Source: an uncultured Methanobrevibacter sp. (lineage in GTDB: Archaea; Methanobacteriota; Methanobacteria; Methanobacteriales; Methanobacteriaceae). From it: a DNA stretch of 49,051 nucleotides. Every line of letters begins with the position of its first letter. Positions within the stretch are counted from its first letter, which is position 1. Under the pieces are notes generated by a model. It had not been told where the DNA came from and made no database searches. It was given only the letters and a program-made list of their open reading frames with translations. Of this stretch, positions 9,828 to 17,720 are shown one piece after another. The DNA is taken from the NCBI GenBank assembly GCA_902789505.1, contig CADAOO010000003.1:1-49051 (forward strand). The letters are read 5' to 3'. The position numbers and the translations under genes are program-made.

Positions 9828-10412
9828 TTACTCCTTTTCAAAAATTATCAAATAATGGGATTTTCCTTGAGGAATTTCCGCACCGATATCATCATTCAGA
9901 TAAACCTTTCTAAAATTATGATTGTCAAATATCTTTTCTAATTCATCGGGAGAGTATCTGATATCAGTCGGGGGACCCCATGACATTTCTAACGGTTTGA
10001 AATCAATTATGGCCATTCTACCGCCATATTTAAGTATTCTAGCAAATTCATCAATTACATCATCCCTGTTCCCAGAGGTGAATCCGTGAAATACATTAAC
10101 CATTAAAGCAACATCAACTGAATCCTCTTCAACACCAGGAATGGCTTTAGTTATATCCGCTTCGACGGCTATTAAATTTTCAAAATTATTTTTGTTTATA
10201 TAATCATTTAATTCTTTAATAGACTCATCATATGCATCTACAGCATATACCGTGCCCTCAGGAAGATAGCGTTCAATTGCCTTAATTGCAATATGGCCAT
10301 CACCGCAACCGGCATCCATAAAGGTTTCATCGCCTTTTAAATTTAATTCTGCTAAAATTTCTTCAGAATCCAGAAAAGTTTCACTTGATTTTCCATGATG
10401 CACATGATCCAT
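9828..10412 (-). CDS. Class I SAM-dependent methyltransferase (copy 1)
   Basis: 194 residues. Motif I is FMDAGCGDGH (about residues 31-40), followed by the acidic strand end AVDAYD and the post-motif segment IDFKPL, all standard for Rossmann-fold methyltransferases of the UbiE-like group. It is closely related to the next gene upstream (10514-11125), so the pair is a tandem duplication. Only this copy abuts tarI, with 2 bp between stop and start, so it may act on a product of the ribitol pathway or simply share its promoter. Substrate unknown. Confidence 0.85.
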   Translation of the reverse strand: MDHVHHGKSSETFLDSEEILAELNLKGDETFMDAGCGDGHIAIKAIERYLPEGTVYAVDAYDESIKELNDYINKNNFENLIAVEADITKAIPGVEEDSVDVALMVNVFHGFTSGNRDDVIDEFARILKYGGRMAIIDFKPLEMSWGPPTDIRYSPDELEKIFDNHNFRKVYLNDDIGAEIPQGKSHYLIIFEKE

Positions 10413-10513: not shown

Positions 10514-11125
10514 TCAGTTTTTAGCAAACATTATCAAATAATGAGATTTGCCTTCAGGAATATCTTCGCCAATCTCCTCATTTAAATAGGTCTTTTTAAG
10601 ACCGTGTTCGTTGAATAATTTTTCCAAATCCTCAGGCGAACTTCGGACAGGAGTTGGAGGGCCTTTTGGTACATCCCATGCCTTATAATCCATAATGGCT
10701 ATTTTACCACCAGATTTAATAATTCTTGCAAATTCGTCTACTGCCTCATCCATTTTTCTTGAAGCCTTAAACCCATGGAAAACATTAACCGTCAGGACCA
10801 CATCAACAGAATTATCTTCGACACCAGGAATGCCATCAGTAATATCCGCTTCAATGTTGATTAAGTTTTCAACATTGTTTTCCTTTTTGTAATCTTCCAT
10901 ATCCTCAATTGATCCATCATAAACATCCACTGCATAAACAATTCCCTTATGATTATAATCTTCAAGAACTTTGATGGCATTGTGACCGTCACCGCATCCC
11001 GCATCCATAAAGGTTTCATCACCTTTTAAGTCCAATTCTTGAATAATTTCATCCGAATCCAGGAAATGTGCACTCGAAAATCCATGAGCCCTATGTCCAT
11101 TTGGAGGTAACATCATATTTTTCAT
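10514..11125 (-). CDS. Class I SAM-dependent methyltransferase (copy 2)
   Basis: 203 residues, a paralogue of the gene at 9828-10412. Both carry FMDAGCGDGH, a strand AVDVYD/AVDAYD, VNVFHGF, the GPPT turn and an ending GKSHYLI. It has a slightly longer N terminus with His and Pro. The 101-bp gap to copy 1 is AT-rich and may carry its own promoter, so the two copies can be regulated apart. Substrate unknown. A divergent pair of specificities or a dosage effect are both possible. Confidence 0.85.
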   Translation of the reverse strand: MKNMMLPPNGHRAHGFSSAHFLDSDEIIQELDLKGDETFMDAGCGDGHNAIKVLEDYNHKGIVYAVDVYDGSIEDMEDYKKENNVENLINIEADITDGIPGVEDNSVDVVLTVNVFHGFKASRKMDEAVDEFARIIKSGGKIAIMDYKAWDVPKGPPTPVRSSPEDLEKLFNEHGLKKTYLNEEIGEDIPEGKSHYLIMFAKN

Positions 11126-12664: not shown

Positions 12665-13057
12665 TTAATAATTTGTGGAATGATTTGTTAAATTGTATTC
12701 AGCAATATCATTCGGACTGTTGTAGTCTATTTTTTCATAACCATCATAAATGGAAAAGTTTGATTTATTTAAATTGGATGTCATTTCTACAGTAACATTC
12801 TCCACATGAACTTCCTCAGTAGCATTATTATCATCAAAGGCACCAAGAGCCATTGAAACACCAGCACCAGCACCAGCAACAAATGCAATTAAAGCGAGAA
12901 TAATAAGAAGCATTGTAGTTTTACTAGTCTTAGATGCCTTTTTATTTCTATAAGGATTTCTATTCCTATGATTATTTCTTATTCTTCTCTTTTGTTTTGG
13001 AGGTTGACTATATCTTGGTTTCAACACTCTCTTATCTTCTTGCTTTCGCCTTCTCAT
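12665..13057 (-). CDS. Small basic membrane protein of the NYN/palm cluster
   Basis: About 130 residues: a strongly basic, Asn/Arg-rich first 50 residues (RRIRNNHRNRNPYRN), one membrane helix (MLLIILALIAFVAGAGAGVSM), then an acidic, Asn-rich outer part of about 60 residues with several N-x-S/T sequons. The positive charge keeps the N terminus inside. The ATG at 13057 is chosen; a TTG at 13078 overlaps the previous stop (TAATTG) and would add seven residues. The basic cytoplasmic tail could contact RNA or the ribosome, but that is inference. It follows the palm-domain gene without a gap. Confidence 0.65.
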   Translation of the reverse strand: MRRRKQEDKRVLKPRYSQPPKQKRRIRNNHRNRNPYRNKKASKTSKTTMLLIILALIAFVAGAGAGVSMALGAFDDNNATEEVHVENVTVEMTSNLNKSNFSIYDGYEKIDYNSPNDIAEYNLTNHSTNY

Positions 13058-13078
13058 ATTACTTCTCTTTATTATCAA

Positions 13079-14281
13079 TTAAGCTACAAATGCATAAACC
13101 AATACCAAAATTATTCCAACAAAGCTAAACATTCCCAGCCCTAAAATAGACATCAAATAAACGAAAATGAATACGAAAGCAAATACTCCGATTAGTTTCG
13201 GTTTTTCATTTTCGACTAGGTTGATTAAAGTCCTTGTAAATTCAGTTGGGATGTTATACGCATATAAACCATTAGCCAACTCGAAAACAACTAAAGACAA
13301 TGGGGCGGTGGATTGCAAACTATCTACCAATTGAGCTCGTTCACCGGCTTCTCTTCTGCTTCTTCCAACACCAGCTCTTATTTTAGCACCATTATCCAAG
13401 GCAAACCATGCGGCATCGAGTCCTGCCCTAATAGCCAAATCTTTTGATGGGAATCTTGCAATAAAATCATCCCCACCTTCCCGATATCCTTCAAGTTCAC
13501 CGTCACATTCTGTTTCGATGAAGTTCTTAATGCCGGTCATTAGTTCCACAAGCTGATTTCTGCCATGTTTACTGATAAATTTGGTAGAATCAATTAAGTC
13601 AATGAAGAGATAATTCTCCAAGTCAACCGGACGGGATTCCCTTAATAAAAATGGCTCATCAAATACCAGTGCATATTCCCCTCCAAGTTTGGTGAATGCA
13701 ATTCCAGGAAAACTTCCGACATTTTGTGTATAATGAATCGCACGCTCAATAGATGCTGCACCAGTCATTCCCACTGCAGATATTACTTGAATGCCTTCAG
13801 ATAAACCAATTCCAATAAGTTCAATAGCGACACGAATTGCATCATTTTTACTTAACATTTTTGCAACGAGTTCAGTGGCTGTTTTTTCAACAATCTCTCC
13901 AGCCTCATTTTCAATAATTTTAACAAAAATATTAATTAAATTGGAAGGATGTGGAATCTCAATGTAAAAATAACGGTCACTACCCATTATAATATTACTA
14001 ACCAGAGCATATTCCTCAATCTTATTTTCAGCAGGTTTTAACTCATGGAAAGTATACTCCGCAGGAATATTTTCAGCACCCACATCTCGAATAAGGTTTT
14101 GTAATATAGTGTCTGATGTAATTTCTGCCTTTTTAAGCTCAAAAAGAATAGTTTGAGTATAATTAAACAACTCAACATATTCTGTTTCAAGATCTGTTGT
14201 TGGAAAATACTTTGTTCCAACAGCTATGGGATTCAGCTTAGTTGTGAGTTTAATAAAAGACTTGGTTAAGCCACTAACCAT
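13079..14281 (-). CDS. Membrane protein with GGDEF/cyclase-like palm domain
   Basis: 400 residues. Residues about 224-315 look like the palm fold shared by GGDEF, class III cyclase and Cas10-type enzymes: a strand LFIDLIDSTKF with Asp 228 and 231, then EGGDDFIARF (GGDD 269-272) and a late RAGVGRSRREAGERA segment. The acidic residues needed for two-metal catalysis are present. The first 220 residues are unrecognised, with the repeated motif ERAIHYTQNVGSFPGIAFTKLGGEYALVF before the palm. Two membrane helices end the protein (about 363-381 and 384-399), so the catalytic part is cytoplasmic. It overlaps the RNase gene by 8 bp, with GGAGGGGG as its ribosome site. The product, if any, is unknown: it could make a cyclic or oligo-nucleotide, or act on GTP like archaeal GTP cyclohydrolase III. 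Confidence 0.75.
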   Translation of the reverse strand: MVSGLTKSFIKLTTKLNPIAVGTKYFPTTDLETEYVELFNYTQTILFELKKAEITSDTILQNLIRDVGAENIPAEYTFHELKPAENKIEEYALVSNIIMGSDRYFYIEIPHPSNLINIFVKIIENEAGEIVEKTATELVAKMLSKNDAIRVAIELIGIGLSEGIQVISAVGMTGAASIERAIHYTQNVGSFPGIAFTKLGGEYALVFDEPFLLRESRPVDLENYLFIDLIDSTKFISKHGRNQLVELMTGIKNFIETECDGELEGYREGGDDFIARFPSKDLAIRAGLDAAWFALDNGAKIRAGVGRSRREAGERAQLVDSLQSTAPLSLVVFELANGLYAYNIPTEFTRTLINLVENEKPKLIGVFAFVFIFVYLMSILGLGMFSFVGIILVLVYAFVA

Positions 14282-15299
14282 CTAAGCCCCCTCCTTTTTC
14301 AAGTTCTATTTCGAACTCTCCCGGTTTTTCTAAAAGCATATCCGGTTTAACAGAAACAAATGGGAATTTCCAAGATCCAAGTCTTCCTGCAATAGTGCTT
14401 GCAATGTTTCTAGAGTTCCTTTTAATAAACACTTCATCATGAGCACTTACACGAACTAGAACATTGTAAGGAGCGTTTTCAGTTACTTCATCAGCCAGCA
14501 TGATATTCAATTCAAAATTGCCCGGCTTAGTAAATAAATCATTACGAACGGCAATTAACGGTTTTTTTTCAAGACCTAATCTGTCGGCAACAGTGACAGA
14601 AATGTTACCTGCATTTTTAACTGCCAATTTATAATCCTTAGGGTGAACAAGCACGAAAATAACATATGGAGCTGCAACTTCAACATCGTCAACCATTTCA
14701 ACAATTTTATTGAACATTGGTATTTTAGAAAATATGTTTTCAAGTTTTGACCCTGCATTATTTTCATTATCAATACGAATTATGGCTTGTTTAGCAATAT
14801 TAAGTGGAGAAATTTCAAGACCTTCCTTTCCAGTATAAATTTCCCATTTTTTAAAATTTAATTCCTTTATGATTTCGTCACAAATGTGCTGCAATATATT
14901 TTTATCTTTTTTAGGTCTTTTAGGTTTTCCAAAGGTGAGTCTTCCGTTATCAATAACAAATGGAATCCTCATTGAAGCGATATTTCTAAATTCAGCAGCA
15001 TAATCTCTGAATTTATCATTAGACAATATTTTTGCTTTTTCAGATGTAGCTATTTCTAAAATAAAATGGTCTGCATCATTACCTGCTGGAACTTCTTCAA
15101 CGTTGTCACTTTCCAGCAATTTCTCGAATTTTTCTTTATCGTCAATATCATGGCGAAGTGATGCATCTGCAATAATTACAAACTCATCCTCACTTTCTTC
15201 TAATGCTTTAACGGCTGCAAGGAGATTAGACATTTGAGGTTGCCCATTTTCATTTTTTACATAGTGGGCTACATTTGAAGCATCTACAACAACTTTCAC
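14274..15299 (-). CDS. NYN (Zc3h12a-type) ribonuclease with duplicated C-terminal module
   Basis: 341 residues from a GTG start with AGGTGAT upstream. Residues 1-125 form an NYN/PIN-like RNase: VVVDASNV (D6, N9), IIADASLRHDID (D45), PAGNDADHFI (D75, D77) and SNDKFRDY (D95, D99), the order seen in Zc3h12a-type RNases. A basic linker (KPKRPKKDK, 125-133) follows. The C-terminal part contains two similar units of about 60 residues (208-268 and 273-335), each with APY..V at the start, a central A.RLG and KPG.FE at the end. These may bind ligand, RNA or partner. It heads an overlapping operon with the palm-domain protein. Confidence 0.8.
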   Translation of the reverse strand: MKVVVDASNVAHYVKNENGQPQMSNLLAAVKALEESEDEFVIIADASLRHDIDDKEKFEKLLESDNVEEVPAGNDADHFILEIATSEKAKILSNDKFRDYAAEFRNIASMRIPFVIDNGRLTFGKPKRPKKDKNILQHICDEIIKELNFKKWEIYTGKEGLEISPLNIAKQAIIRIDNENNAGSKLENIFSKIPMFNKIVEMVDDVEVAAPYVIFVLVHPKDYKLAVKNAGNISVTVADRLGLEKKPLIAVRNDLFTKPGNFELNIMLADEVTENAPYNVLVRVSAHDEVFIKRNSRNIASTIAGRLGSWKFPFVSVKPDMLLEKPGEFEIELEKGGGLDG

Positions 15300-15394
15300 A
15301 ATATCACCTAACTAAATCATCTATTAGAATATAATTTATTCAGTATACTATATTTGTATAATTGTATATTTAAATGTTAATTTAAAAAAAGAAA

Positions 15395-16138
15395 TTATGG
15401 TTTGTTTCTTTGATATTTTCCAAAAAGAAACTTTTCACCATCAACGTTATGAAGATAAATTTCAATCTCATCTTCAGAAATAATATAAACATTGTAGGAG
15501 TTTAAGTTTTTACCCCTGAGTTTATCGGAACACAATGATCCTGCATTAACAACAACAGTATTATTTATTTTCCAGATATTTGGAACATGCTTGTGTCCTG
15601 ATAAAACCAAATCCACCTCATGAGTGGTTAATGTTTTTAAAATATCTCCAGAATCTGACAGAACGTTGCGTTCGCGCCCAGTTTGAGGAATTGAAATTAC
15701 ATGATGATGTAAAGCTACAATTGAAAAGTTATCATTGATAACGCATTCATCCAATTGATGTTCCAACCATAAATGTTGAGGTCGCCCAATATCTCCCCTA
15801 TTCTCATCAGGAGAGCTACTGTCAAGTCCAATTACAGTAAAATCATCACCCACAGATAATTTCCAACTTCTCTCACCAATCAATTCTTCAAAAGTCATAT
15901 ATCCTAAATTACGAGCATCATGATTTCCTGGAATAGCGAATAAAGGTGCTTCAAACATCTCTAAATATCGGGTTGCTTGTTTAAACTGTTTATAATAACC
16001 ATTATCAGTAATGTCTCCGGTTAAAATAATCATGTCCGGCTGTAAATAGTTTATTTCATTTATTGCTTTTAAAAGTATTTCTTCATCGAAACTTGCATCA
16101 GAAATATGCAAATCTGAAATGTGAGCAATTACTGTCAT
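15395..16138 (-). CDS. CpdA/Icc-like calcineurin-type phosphodiesterase
   Basis: 247 residues with all metallophosphoesterase motifs: ISDLHIS (D9, H11), GDITD (D42), GNHD (N72, H73), an HHH at 144-146 and GHKH (H182, H184). These bind the two metals. The domain order and length match the class III cyclic nucleotide phosphodiesterase CpdA (Icc) group. Such enzymes often accept several phosphodiesters, so cAMP is not assured. It lies directly upstream of the RNase/palm operon on the same strand, 95 bp apart, and 5 bp after NAC. That position invites a role in removing a nucleotide signal, but this is inference. Confidence 0.85.
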   Translation of the reverse strand: MTVIAHISDLHISDASFDEEILLKAINEINYLQPDMIILTGDITDNGYYKQFKQATRYLEMFEAPLFAIPGNHDARNLGYMTFEELIGERSWKLSVGDDFTVIGLDSSSPDENRGDIGRPQHLWLEHQLDECVINDNFSIVALHHHVISIPQTGRERNVLSDSGDILKTLTTHEVDLVLSGHKHVPNIWKINNTVVVNAGSLCSDKLRGKNLNSYNVYIISEDEIEIYLHNVDGEKFLFGKYQRNKP

Positions 16139-16143
16139 AGTAT

Positions 16144-16494
16144 CTATTGATTTAATTTCATAATGGCTTCTGCTAAATCGCCTTTACATTCTTCCAAAGC
16201 TACTTTTGCTTCATCTAGAGAAACATTAGCACTATTAGCCACCATTTCTATATCCTCTTCGGGAATTTCAATCTCATATTCAAGTTCTACTTCACGGGCT
16301 TTACCTTCAATTTGGTAAGTTTCCTGACCCATCACATTCATAAGACTTACGCTAGGATTGTCAATAACCAATTCTTTTTCATCAAAGCGAATAATGACTT
16401 CACGAACACCCTCCAGGTCTTCCATTTTCATACCCATCTTTTTCATTTGTCTTTCCATTTGTTTCATCTGTTTTTTATTCATACCCGGTATCAT
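16144..16494 (-). CDS. Nascent polypeptide-associated complex protein (archaeal NAC)
   Basis: 116 residues that begin with the archaeal NAC pattern (MIPGMNKKQMKQMERQMKKMG), continue with the NAC barrel (IRFDEKELVIDNPSV...QTYQIEG) and end with a UBA domain (VSLDEAKVALEECKGDLAEAIMKL). Archaeal NAC is a homodimer that binds nascent chains at the ribosomal exit. It begins a close-packed run with the phosphodiesterase 5 bp downstream, so the two are probably co-transcribed. The placement beside an RNase and phosphodiesterase may link the cluster to translation. Confidence 0.96.
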   Translation of the reverse strand: MIPGMNKKQMKQMERQMKKMGMKMEDLEGVREVIIRFDEKELVIDNPSVSLMNVMGQETYQIEGKAREVELEYEIEIPEEDIEMVANSANVSLDEAKVALEECKGDLAEAIMKLNQ

Positions 16495-16577: not shown

Positions 16578-17720
16578 TTAATTTTCAAATCCATATATTT
16601 CTGTTTCAAATGTTTTTGCAACATCCTTCAGGACTTCAGGTATGTTAATCTGCTGAGGGCATTCCTCAATGCAGGTTTCACATTCACTGCAATTCGAAGC
16701 GATTCCCACATCCGGAAGCTTTGTATAATTCAGATAGGCATTTCCAAATTGTGTCCATTCGTCAATCTTGAGCATTTTATGCTTATTGTACAAATCAAAG
16801 ATTTTTGCAATGTCTATCTCTTCCGGGCATGTATCCACACAGTATCTGCATTTTGTACAGTCAACAGTAATGTTGCTGTTGATGATTCGTGAAACCTCTT
16901 CGAGGATTTTTAATTCATCATCATTCAACGGATCCGCATCGTTAATTTCCTGAATATTATTTTCAAGTTGCTCTAGGGTGCTTGCACCGGTTAAAACAAC
17001 ACAGACATCATCAAGATTTGCTACAAATCTCATTGCCCATGAAACTACTGACCTGTCAGGATTGTATTCCTTCATTAATTTTTCAGCCTCTTCAGGCACA
17101 TCTGCTAAAAATCCACCTTTATATGGCTCCATTACCATTACTGATTTGTTATATTTTCTAGCAACTTCCAGACATTTCTTGGATTCGATTCCCTCATCTT
17201 CCCAGTCAAGGTAATTTATTTGAAGTAGAACAAATTCAAGTTCCGGATGTTCAAATAGAATTTCTTCCAAAAATTCAGCATTTCCATGAGTGGATATCCC
17301 AATATGTTTAATCAATCCCTCTTCTTTTTTCTTTTGAATGAATGAATACAAATCAACATTTTTCCATGCGGTTTCTGTAAATCCGCTTACATTATGCAAC
17401 ATATAATAATCAAAGTAATCAACGCCACAATTTTCAAGCTGCTGAGCAAATATCGGTTCCAGCTGTGATTCTTCAGTAATTATGAATAACGGCAGTTTTG
17501 TAGCTATTTTAAATGATTCTCTAGGATATCTGTCAACGACACATTTTTTAAATGCCTGTTCCCCTATGCCTTCATGATAAACAAATGCAGTATCGAAGTG
17601 ATTGAAACCTGCATCCATATATGCATCCACCATCCTGTTGACTTGTTCGTAATCAATGTTTGTAAAATCGTTTTCATCTAAAAGGGGAAGCCTCATCATC
17701 CCCATACCTAATTTAGTCAT
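16578..17720 (-). CDS. Aldo/keto reductase with C-terminal ferredoxin domain
   Basis: 380 residues. The N-terminal TIM barrel carries the catalytic set D43, Y48, K75 and H109 (DTAFVYHEG, KIATKLP, DYYMLHN). The C-terminal 100 residues hold two cysteine clusters, CTKCRYCVDTCP and CSECETCIEECP, for two [4Fe-4S] centres. This fusion is common in anaerobes and suggests that electrons come from ferredoxin rather than only from NADPH. The substrate is not known. It is flanked by AT-rich gaps and is probably monocistronic. Confidence 0.9.
   Translation of the reverse strand: MTKLGMGMMRLPLLDENDFTNIDYEQVNRMVDAYMDAGFNHFDTAFVYHEGIGEQAFKKCVVDRYPRESFKIATKLPLFIITEESQLEPIFAQQLENCGVDYFDYYMLHNVSGFTETAWKNVDLYSFIQKKKEEGLIKHIGISTHGNAEFLEEILFEHPELEFVLLQINYLDWEDEGIESKKCLEVARKYNKSVMVMEPYKGGFLADVPEEAEKLMKEYNPDRSVVSWAMRFVANLDDVCVVLTGASTLEQLENNIQEINDADPLNDDELKILEEVSRIINSNITVDCTKCRYCVDTCPEEIDIAKIFDLYNKHKMLKIDEWTQFGNAYLNYTKLPDVGIASNCSECETCIEECPQQINIPEVLKDVAKTFETEIYGFEN

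Follow-up and report, generated by a model that had tools for sequence, protein, structure and literature searches.

The stretch of DNA analysed here, hereafter the window, comprises 49,051 nucleotides of contig CADAOO010000003.1 (assembly GCA_902789505.1) from an uncultured Methanobrevibacter sp. On its minus strand four consecutive genes encode, in reading order, a calcineurin-type metallophosphoesterase of 247 amino acids (phosphodiesterase, PDE; 15395-16138; Pfam Metallophos, 9.6e-21), an NYN RNase of 341 amino acids that starts at GTG and ends in a duplicated domain (14274-15299; RNase_Zc3h12a, 5e-17), a membrane protein of 400 amino acids with two palm units in tandem (13079-14281; profile match to the cyclase Rv1900c), and a small protein with a single membrane span, whose open reading frame (ORF) holds 137 amino acids when read from TTG 13078 (12665-13078). 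A first-pass annotation, made from the letters alone, had read the first three as one system in which the palm protein makes a nucleotide that controls the RNase and the PDE removes it. The four genes are real, and PDE, NYN and palm belong to an ancient operon. Within it, the palm protein and the duplicated domain constitute a core, paired membrane module of the pseudomurein methanogens, a module that, judged from alignments and models, is most likely nucleotide-dependent.

The palm protein was modelled with AlphaFold 2 (AF2) from 39 aligned sequences (pLDDT 85). In the model, an N-terminal beta-alpha-beta-alpha-beta piece (residues 17-82) is followed by a first palm unit (103-206), a second one (223-343) and a C-terminal membrane hairpin (361-399). 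On the minus strand of the window, unit 1, taken as residues 95-212, occupies 13646-13999, unit 2 (213-350) 13232-13645, and the hairpin 13085-13201, the last being predicted as two helices (361-379 and 383-399) with hydropathy of 2.1-2.5. Of the membrane protein with a GGDD palm described at first pass, the palm and the membrane hairpin stand, while the palm units are two and not one, related by internal duplication (hhalign 96%, E 4.2e-9). Aligned in this way, unit 1 is degenerate and devoid of GGDD, and unit 2, the putative catalytic unit, carries D228 and the GGDD motif, in alignment with the metal aspartates of class III cyclases. The motif at residues 269-272 (codons at 13466-13477, minus strand) and an 8-bp overlap between the NYN and palm genes had both been pointed out earlier, and both can be read directly from the sequence; GGDD is found in 112/112 palms of Methanobacteria, and in 116/116 when four copies of a Methanopyrus-like family are added. 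Across these 116 sequences D228, S232, G269-D272 and K280 are invariant in unit 2, as are R103, T173, E179, R180, K198 and E202 in unit 1, a set that would fit a complementary substrate surface.

Comparison with proteins of known structure leads to the class III nucleotide cyclases. In a profile search of the PDB, all five sequences at E<=1 belong to this class, and the best match, Rv1900c, improves from 1.6e-3 to 5.3e-5 after the addition of one Methanopyrus-like sequence; in the profile alignment D228 and D271 are in register with its two metal aspartates. In other words, the aspartate pair of class III cyclases, on beta1 and in the beta2-beta3 hairpin, is present in 116/116 palms. The Foldseek search of the PDB with the model returns the cyclase-homology palm fold, with adenylyl cyclases first: the tandem C1-C2 domains of AC9 match at 1.1e-6 (probability 1.00), Ma1120 with a TM-score of up to 0.57 on the target, and GTP cyclohydrolase III at 7e-5. 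As whole-chain TM-scores are low, the modelled likeness is one of domains only. With Rv1900c, Ma1120 and AC9 the palm protein shares the fold, a beta1 aspartate followed by ST, a second aspartate in a Gly-Asp hairpin, and a tandem of active and degenerate units resembling C1-C2; unlike them, it has GGDD and a C-terminal hairpin, has no beta4-beta5 arm and escapes detection by PF00211. Because the arm with its transition-state residues is absent, the protein appears class III-like and is not filed as a member of the class. Accordingly, Pfam assigns no family to the palm of the window, and PF00211 has no match in its own genome. Of the structures that the first-pass annotation had proposed for comparison, the class III cyclase comes first and GTP cyclohydrolase III is also found, whereas neither the GGDEF motif nor PF00990 is encountered: the identity as a GGDEF diguanylate cyclase was rejected on GGDD in 116/116 sequences and on the absence of PF00990 among the Pfam matches of the 39 palms.

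GTP cyclohydrolase III (MJ0145, ArfA) resembles the palm protein in its tandem palm, born of internal duplication, and in a GGD motif in the second unit. It differs in reading GGDN, in having no membrane hairpin and in the lack of a significant profile link; membership was rejected, with no PF05165 match, an hhalign probability below 3% and a genuine GTP cyclohydrolase III gene elsewhere in these genomes. The palm could nonetheless be a metabolic enzyme of this kind, acting on free nucleotide and linked to the RNase by operon inheritance only, as the shared tandem architecture, the Foldseek hit and the thiC gene adjoining the Methanopyrus-like palm gene would allow. With a separate gene for the cyclohydrolase, profiles that do not connect the two families, and a partner domain that keeps its place next to the palm in both classes, the other neighbours being different, such a role is very improbable.

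The protein whose gene overlaps that of the palm consists of two parts. Its NYN nuclease domain (residues 1-125; 14925-15299, minus strand) matches ZC3H12C in a profile search of the PDB (1.1e-6) and ZC3H12C/Regnase in Foldseek (3.3e-6), and scores 62.5 bits with PF11977 against a cut-off of 23. Alignment to Regnase/ZC3H12C places the catalytic acids at D6, D77 and D95 (with D/E99), and each of the first three is Asp in 107/108 NYN sequences. Among the residues D6, D45 and D75, proposed earlier as catalytic, the first holds, D45 is invariant but outside the aligned metal ligands, and D75 is conserved in 63/108 only. The likeness to Regnase/ZC3H12 and KHNYN nucleases extends to the NYN fold and the acids D6/D77/D95; unlike them, the window protein carries a duplicated domain in place of a zinc finger or KH domain (residues 205-341; 14277-14687, minus strand), composed of two beta-alpha-alpha-beta-beta repeats that align mutually at E 4.9e-12. 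In this domain, for which neither Pfam nor the sequences of the PDB provide a match, R252-N253-D254, R297, S301, T302 and R306 are found in 112/112 sequences, Methanopyrus-like copies included. A KH/NusA-like identity, suggested by eye, was abandoned, with no Pfam KH match, no PDB sequence match and an hhalign probability below 1% to archaeal NusA.

The relation between the two parts becomes apparent outside the Methanobacteria. Four of the five genomes of the Methanopyrus-like family were read at the palm locus (L181, L207, L208 and L209; the fifth, G221, was left out), and in each the gene directly before the palm consists of a linker and the duplicated C-terminal domain. The NYN-domain profile has no match in this neighbouring gene, the rest of these genomes not having been searched for a separate NYN gene; the genes for the nascent-polypeptide-associated complex (NAC), the PDE and argJ are not near the palm at these loci. 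Since the neighbour keeps the duplicated domain and dispenses with NYN, sequence comparison identifies this domain, and not the RNase, as the constant partner of the palm, and NYN would be a clade-specific attachment to it; gain in Methanobacteria and loss in the Methanopyrus-like family both fit. For the same reason the earlier view of the RNase as the target of the signal gives way to one in which the duplicated domain is the more probable target. The idea of the palm as a nucleotide-signalling enzyme is favoured by the cyclase fold, the invariant metal ligands and the pairing with an RNase, even if that RNase is not its constant partner; and, of the three genes to be sought together beyond the Methanobacteriales, the palm has been found there with its partner domain, and neither NYN nor the PDE lies near it at the loci read.

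At two of these loci (L207, 4276-6658; L181, 4161-6537) there is a 4-bp overlap between the palm gene and thiC, and a gene of the RNA-ligase family (PF09414, 3.5e-8) is next, two genes downstream of the palm. This gene bears on a further explanation, namely that the set serves RNA processing or repair, with NYN cutting, the palm adding or modifying a nucleotide at the RNA end and the metallophosphoesterase trimming ends. Metal-dependent PIN/NYN nucleases leave 3'-OH/5'-phosphate ends, so that the trimming of cyclic phosphates by the PDE would be unneeded. In addition, the Methanopyrus-like loci lack the RNase, and the nearest structural and profile matches of the palm are cyclases and not polymerases. 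Palm domains do include RNA polymerases and Thg1 (PMC2904730), which lends this explanation some ground, although as a whole it is improbable.

The distribution of the pair was followed in 396 archaeal genomes, 152 of Methanobacteriota and 244 of other archaea. The palm is present in 148/152 Methanobacteriota genomes and 20/20 genera, syntenic and nearly always in single copy, and the NYN protein, in single copy, in 146/152. Among the other archaea the palm is clear in 5/244 genomes, all of one family, which we infer to be Methanopyrus-like. In total, 153/396 genomes carry the palm and 151/396 the partner domain (146 Methanobacteria and the same five Methanopyrus-like genomes), within the same two clades; the two genomes with the palm and no partner domain are fragmented metagenome-assembled genomes. 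A Fisher value calculated for this co-occurrence takes no account of relatedness and is not to be taken as a probability. Matches elsewhere are weak, a borderline one for the palm (G202, E=0.002) and six genomes for the partner domain (E 0.006-0.08), as is expected by chance over 396 genomes. The general design, a nucleotide-making palm or cyclase together with a nuclease that carries a receptor domain, recalls CBASS and type III CRISPR with CARF/NYN effectors; unlike those systems, palm and NYN are single-copy, syntenic core genes across the class. Collections of phages, plasmids and viral contigs contain no match to the palm, the NYN matches in three Rhodobacteraceae plasmids are weak, and PADLOC has no hit for either protein. 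A mobile or anti-phage (CBASS-like) element was set aside on these grounds, the gene being core in 148/152 genomes.

The metallophosphoesterase is an old component of the locus. The motifs GNHD and GHKH, already recognised at first pass, lie at residues 71-74 and 181-184, and the metal ligands D9, H11, D42, N72, H73, H144-146, H182 and H184 are kept in 80/80 distinct orthologues. The protein belongs to the calcineurin-type superfamily, and its assignment as CpdA, a 3',5'-cyclic AMP (cAMP) phosphodiesterase, was discarded (61.7 bits against an NCBIfam equivalog cut-off of 225). In 17/20 genera, one or more of the sampled genomes have it ahead of NYN and palm on the same strand, usually with NAC before it, and packing is tightest in early lineages: the PDE-NYN spacing is -8 bp at the Methanothermus-like locus L031 and 9 bp at L042. 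In the window it is 95 bp and includes an AT-rich stretch, so that the two genes need not share one transcript in this genome. The orthologue is missing from 18/19 genomes of one genus (g9), which retain the NYN-palm pair with the palm catalytic residues intact. Neighbour in 17/20 genera and lost in nearly all of g9, the PDE is, by comparison of genomes, ancestral but optional, and the proposal of PDE, NYN and palm as one system holds for the ancient operon and not for an obligate PDE. At L120 (330-1070) and on contig 20 of G067 the PDE gene is split into overlapping fragments beside an intact NYN and palm, through decay or assembly errors. In Methanovirga, symbionts of termites, four loci (L044, L149, L151 and L158) show an NYN-palm gap of 0.4-2.5 kb, and a PDE-like match, in two pieces, is located at another site of the genome; dissolution of the operon seems to be under way there.

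Upstream, the NAC gene (16144-16494, minus strand; TIGR00264, 2e-36) lies 5 bp from the PDE gene and is a conserved neighbour in Methanobacteria. The order NAC-PDE-NYN-palm recurs as far as the Methanothermus-like locus, which is taken as beyond chance, and NAC is present at L031-L043. From this neighbour the first-pass annotation had derived a target at the ribosome, a suggestion founded on gene order; as NAC is absent at the Methanopyrus-like loci, it is kept as context only. Further upstream lies an aldo-keto reductase gene with C-terminal ferredoxin-like cysteine motifs (16578-17720), seen at that site only in close Methanobrevibacter relatives. Downstream of argJ, two adjacent S-adenosylmethionine methyltransferase-like paralogues (9828-10412 and 10514-11125) correspond to one or two in relatives.

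Between the palm and argJ, the small protein has one membrane span, oriented N-in/C-out by the positive-inside rule, and a sequon-rich tail; Pfam gives only hits below cut-off. In most families the palm is followed by a protein of this kind. It had been described as abutting the palm gene, which is true from TTG 13078; from ATG 13057, the preferred start (12665-13057), 21 bp remain, much as in some related genomes, where 21-28 bp are found. The palm-argJ gaps were tested for a short ORF encoding a single membrane span followed by at least three sequons, with 300 Markov shuffles per gap: 17/18 gaps pass, in three families of the class, and 0/300 shuffles for each gap. No such protein was found at L031, nor in 28/151 loci overall, some of these loci being cut off shortly behind the palm. 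In 90 distinct tails there are 432 NxS/T sequons, compared with 168 in shuffled tails, a descriptive excess, given the relatedness of these proteins and a few doubtful ORFs among those picked automatically. A role in sensing the envelope is a guess.

The NYN-palm pair is very probably cluster D of Lupo et al. 2025 (PMC11915815), with which it agrees by description: in that screen for pseudomurein-specific genes, the main text and Table 1 list an NYN ribonuclease (OG0001213) and a 'nucleotide cyclase' (OG0001214), and the 396-genome scan likewise finds an adjacent NYN protein and polytopic cyclase-like protein in pseudomurein archaea only. The main text devotes one table row to each gene, with no mechanism, and considers the cluster probably outside pseudomurein synthesis. 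What the present analysis appears to add to that text is the tandem palm, the invariance of the metal site, the duplicated partner, the Methanopyrus-like copies devoid of NYN, the small protein and the PDE operon. MK0296 (Anantharaman et al. 2010) is, from its likely position, probably a different gene from the palm family. According to earlier surveys, archaea have no class III cyclases or only very rare ones (Galperin 2005, PMC1183210; 2021 survey, PMC8646023). 3',5'-cAMP was reported from Methanothermobacter in 1986 (cited in PMC6741144, PMC8646023), and in the literature examined no enzyme is assigned to its synthesis there.

Taken together, we tentatively favour a nucleotide-using membrane enzyme that signals to the partner domain, with the RNase attached in Methanobacteria, although its probability falls somewhat below even. 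We infer from the sequences and models a course that runs from NTP (nucleoside triphosphate) use and product to receptor, RNase control and the accessory roles. The membrane-anchored tandem palm, a relative of class III cyclases, would use an NTP at unit 2, with unit 1 supplying a complementary surface in the manner of the second domain in class III cyclase pairs. Its product, or its nucleotide-bound state, would be perceived by the dedicated duplicated-domain partner; in Methanobacteria, where this partner carries a Regnase-type NYN RNase, RNA cleavage close to the membrane would be switched by the signal, and in Methanopyrus-like genomes the partner has no RNase joined to it. Input from the envelope side could plausibly come through the sequon-rich one-span protein, and removal of the nucleotide may fall to the metallophosphoesterase in those genomes that have it.

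Several observations weigh against this proposal. The beta4-beta5 arm with the transition-state Asn/Arg of class III cyclases is missing from the model, which runs through strand 301-306, helix 309-321 and strand 330-335 with no arm insertion, the Rv1900c profile alignment stopping at 310; palm chemistry may consequently be other than cAMP synthesis. None of the 39 palms matches a cyclase family of Pfam (PF00211, 0/39 at E<=1). Among 26 relatives no CRP-type receptor for cyclic nucleotides was found, and CYTH proteins, an alternative possible source of cAMP, occur in 26/26. Loss of the PDE is tolerated, no output domain can be recognised in the Methanopyrus-like partner, and, as only two clades carry the pair, its co-occurrence represents few independent events. 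Some of these points would suit a palm that acts as a membrane anchor and NTP-binding sensor with no diffusible product, binding its partner directly and tethering or gating the RNase by nucleotide level, by analogy with membrane-tethered RNA-decay enzymes. Strict pairing with overlapping genes, a membrane hairpin in a protein with no recognised sensor domain, the lack of a cyclase family match and of a CRP-type receptor, and a dispensable PDE would all agree with it. However, the invariance of D228, D271 and D272 in 116/116 sequences over two classes suggests catalysis beyond binding, and this sensor is unlikely.

Nucleotide second messengers of archaea are poorly known. In the Methanobacteria, which are the gut methanogens of humans and ruminants, the palm occurs almost universally and in single copy, and it is a candidate nucleotide-using enzyme of class III-like type; the duplicated domain is a concrete receptor candidate. 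As the pair is restricted to pseudomurein archaea, a link to the envelope is suggested. In its fullest form, which is unlikely, this would be an envelope-linked second messenger confined to these archaea, in which the small protein, its sequon-rich tail probably glycosylated, senses the wall or surface, the palm makes the nucleotide and the duplicated domain receives it, with the NYN effector attached in Methanobacteria.

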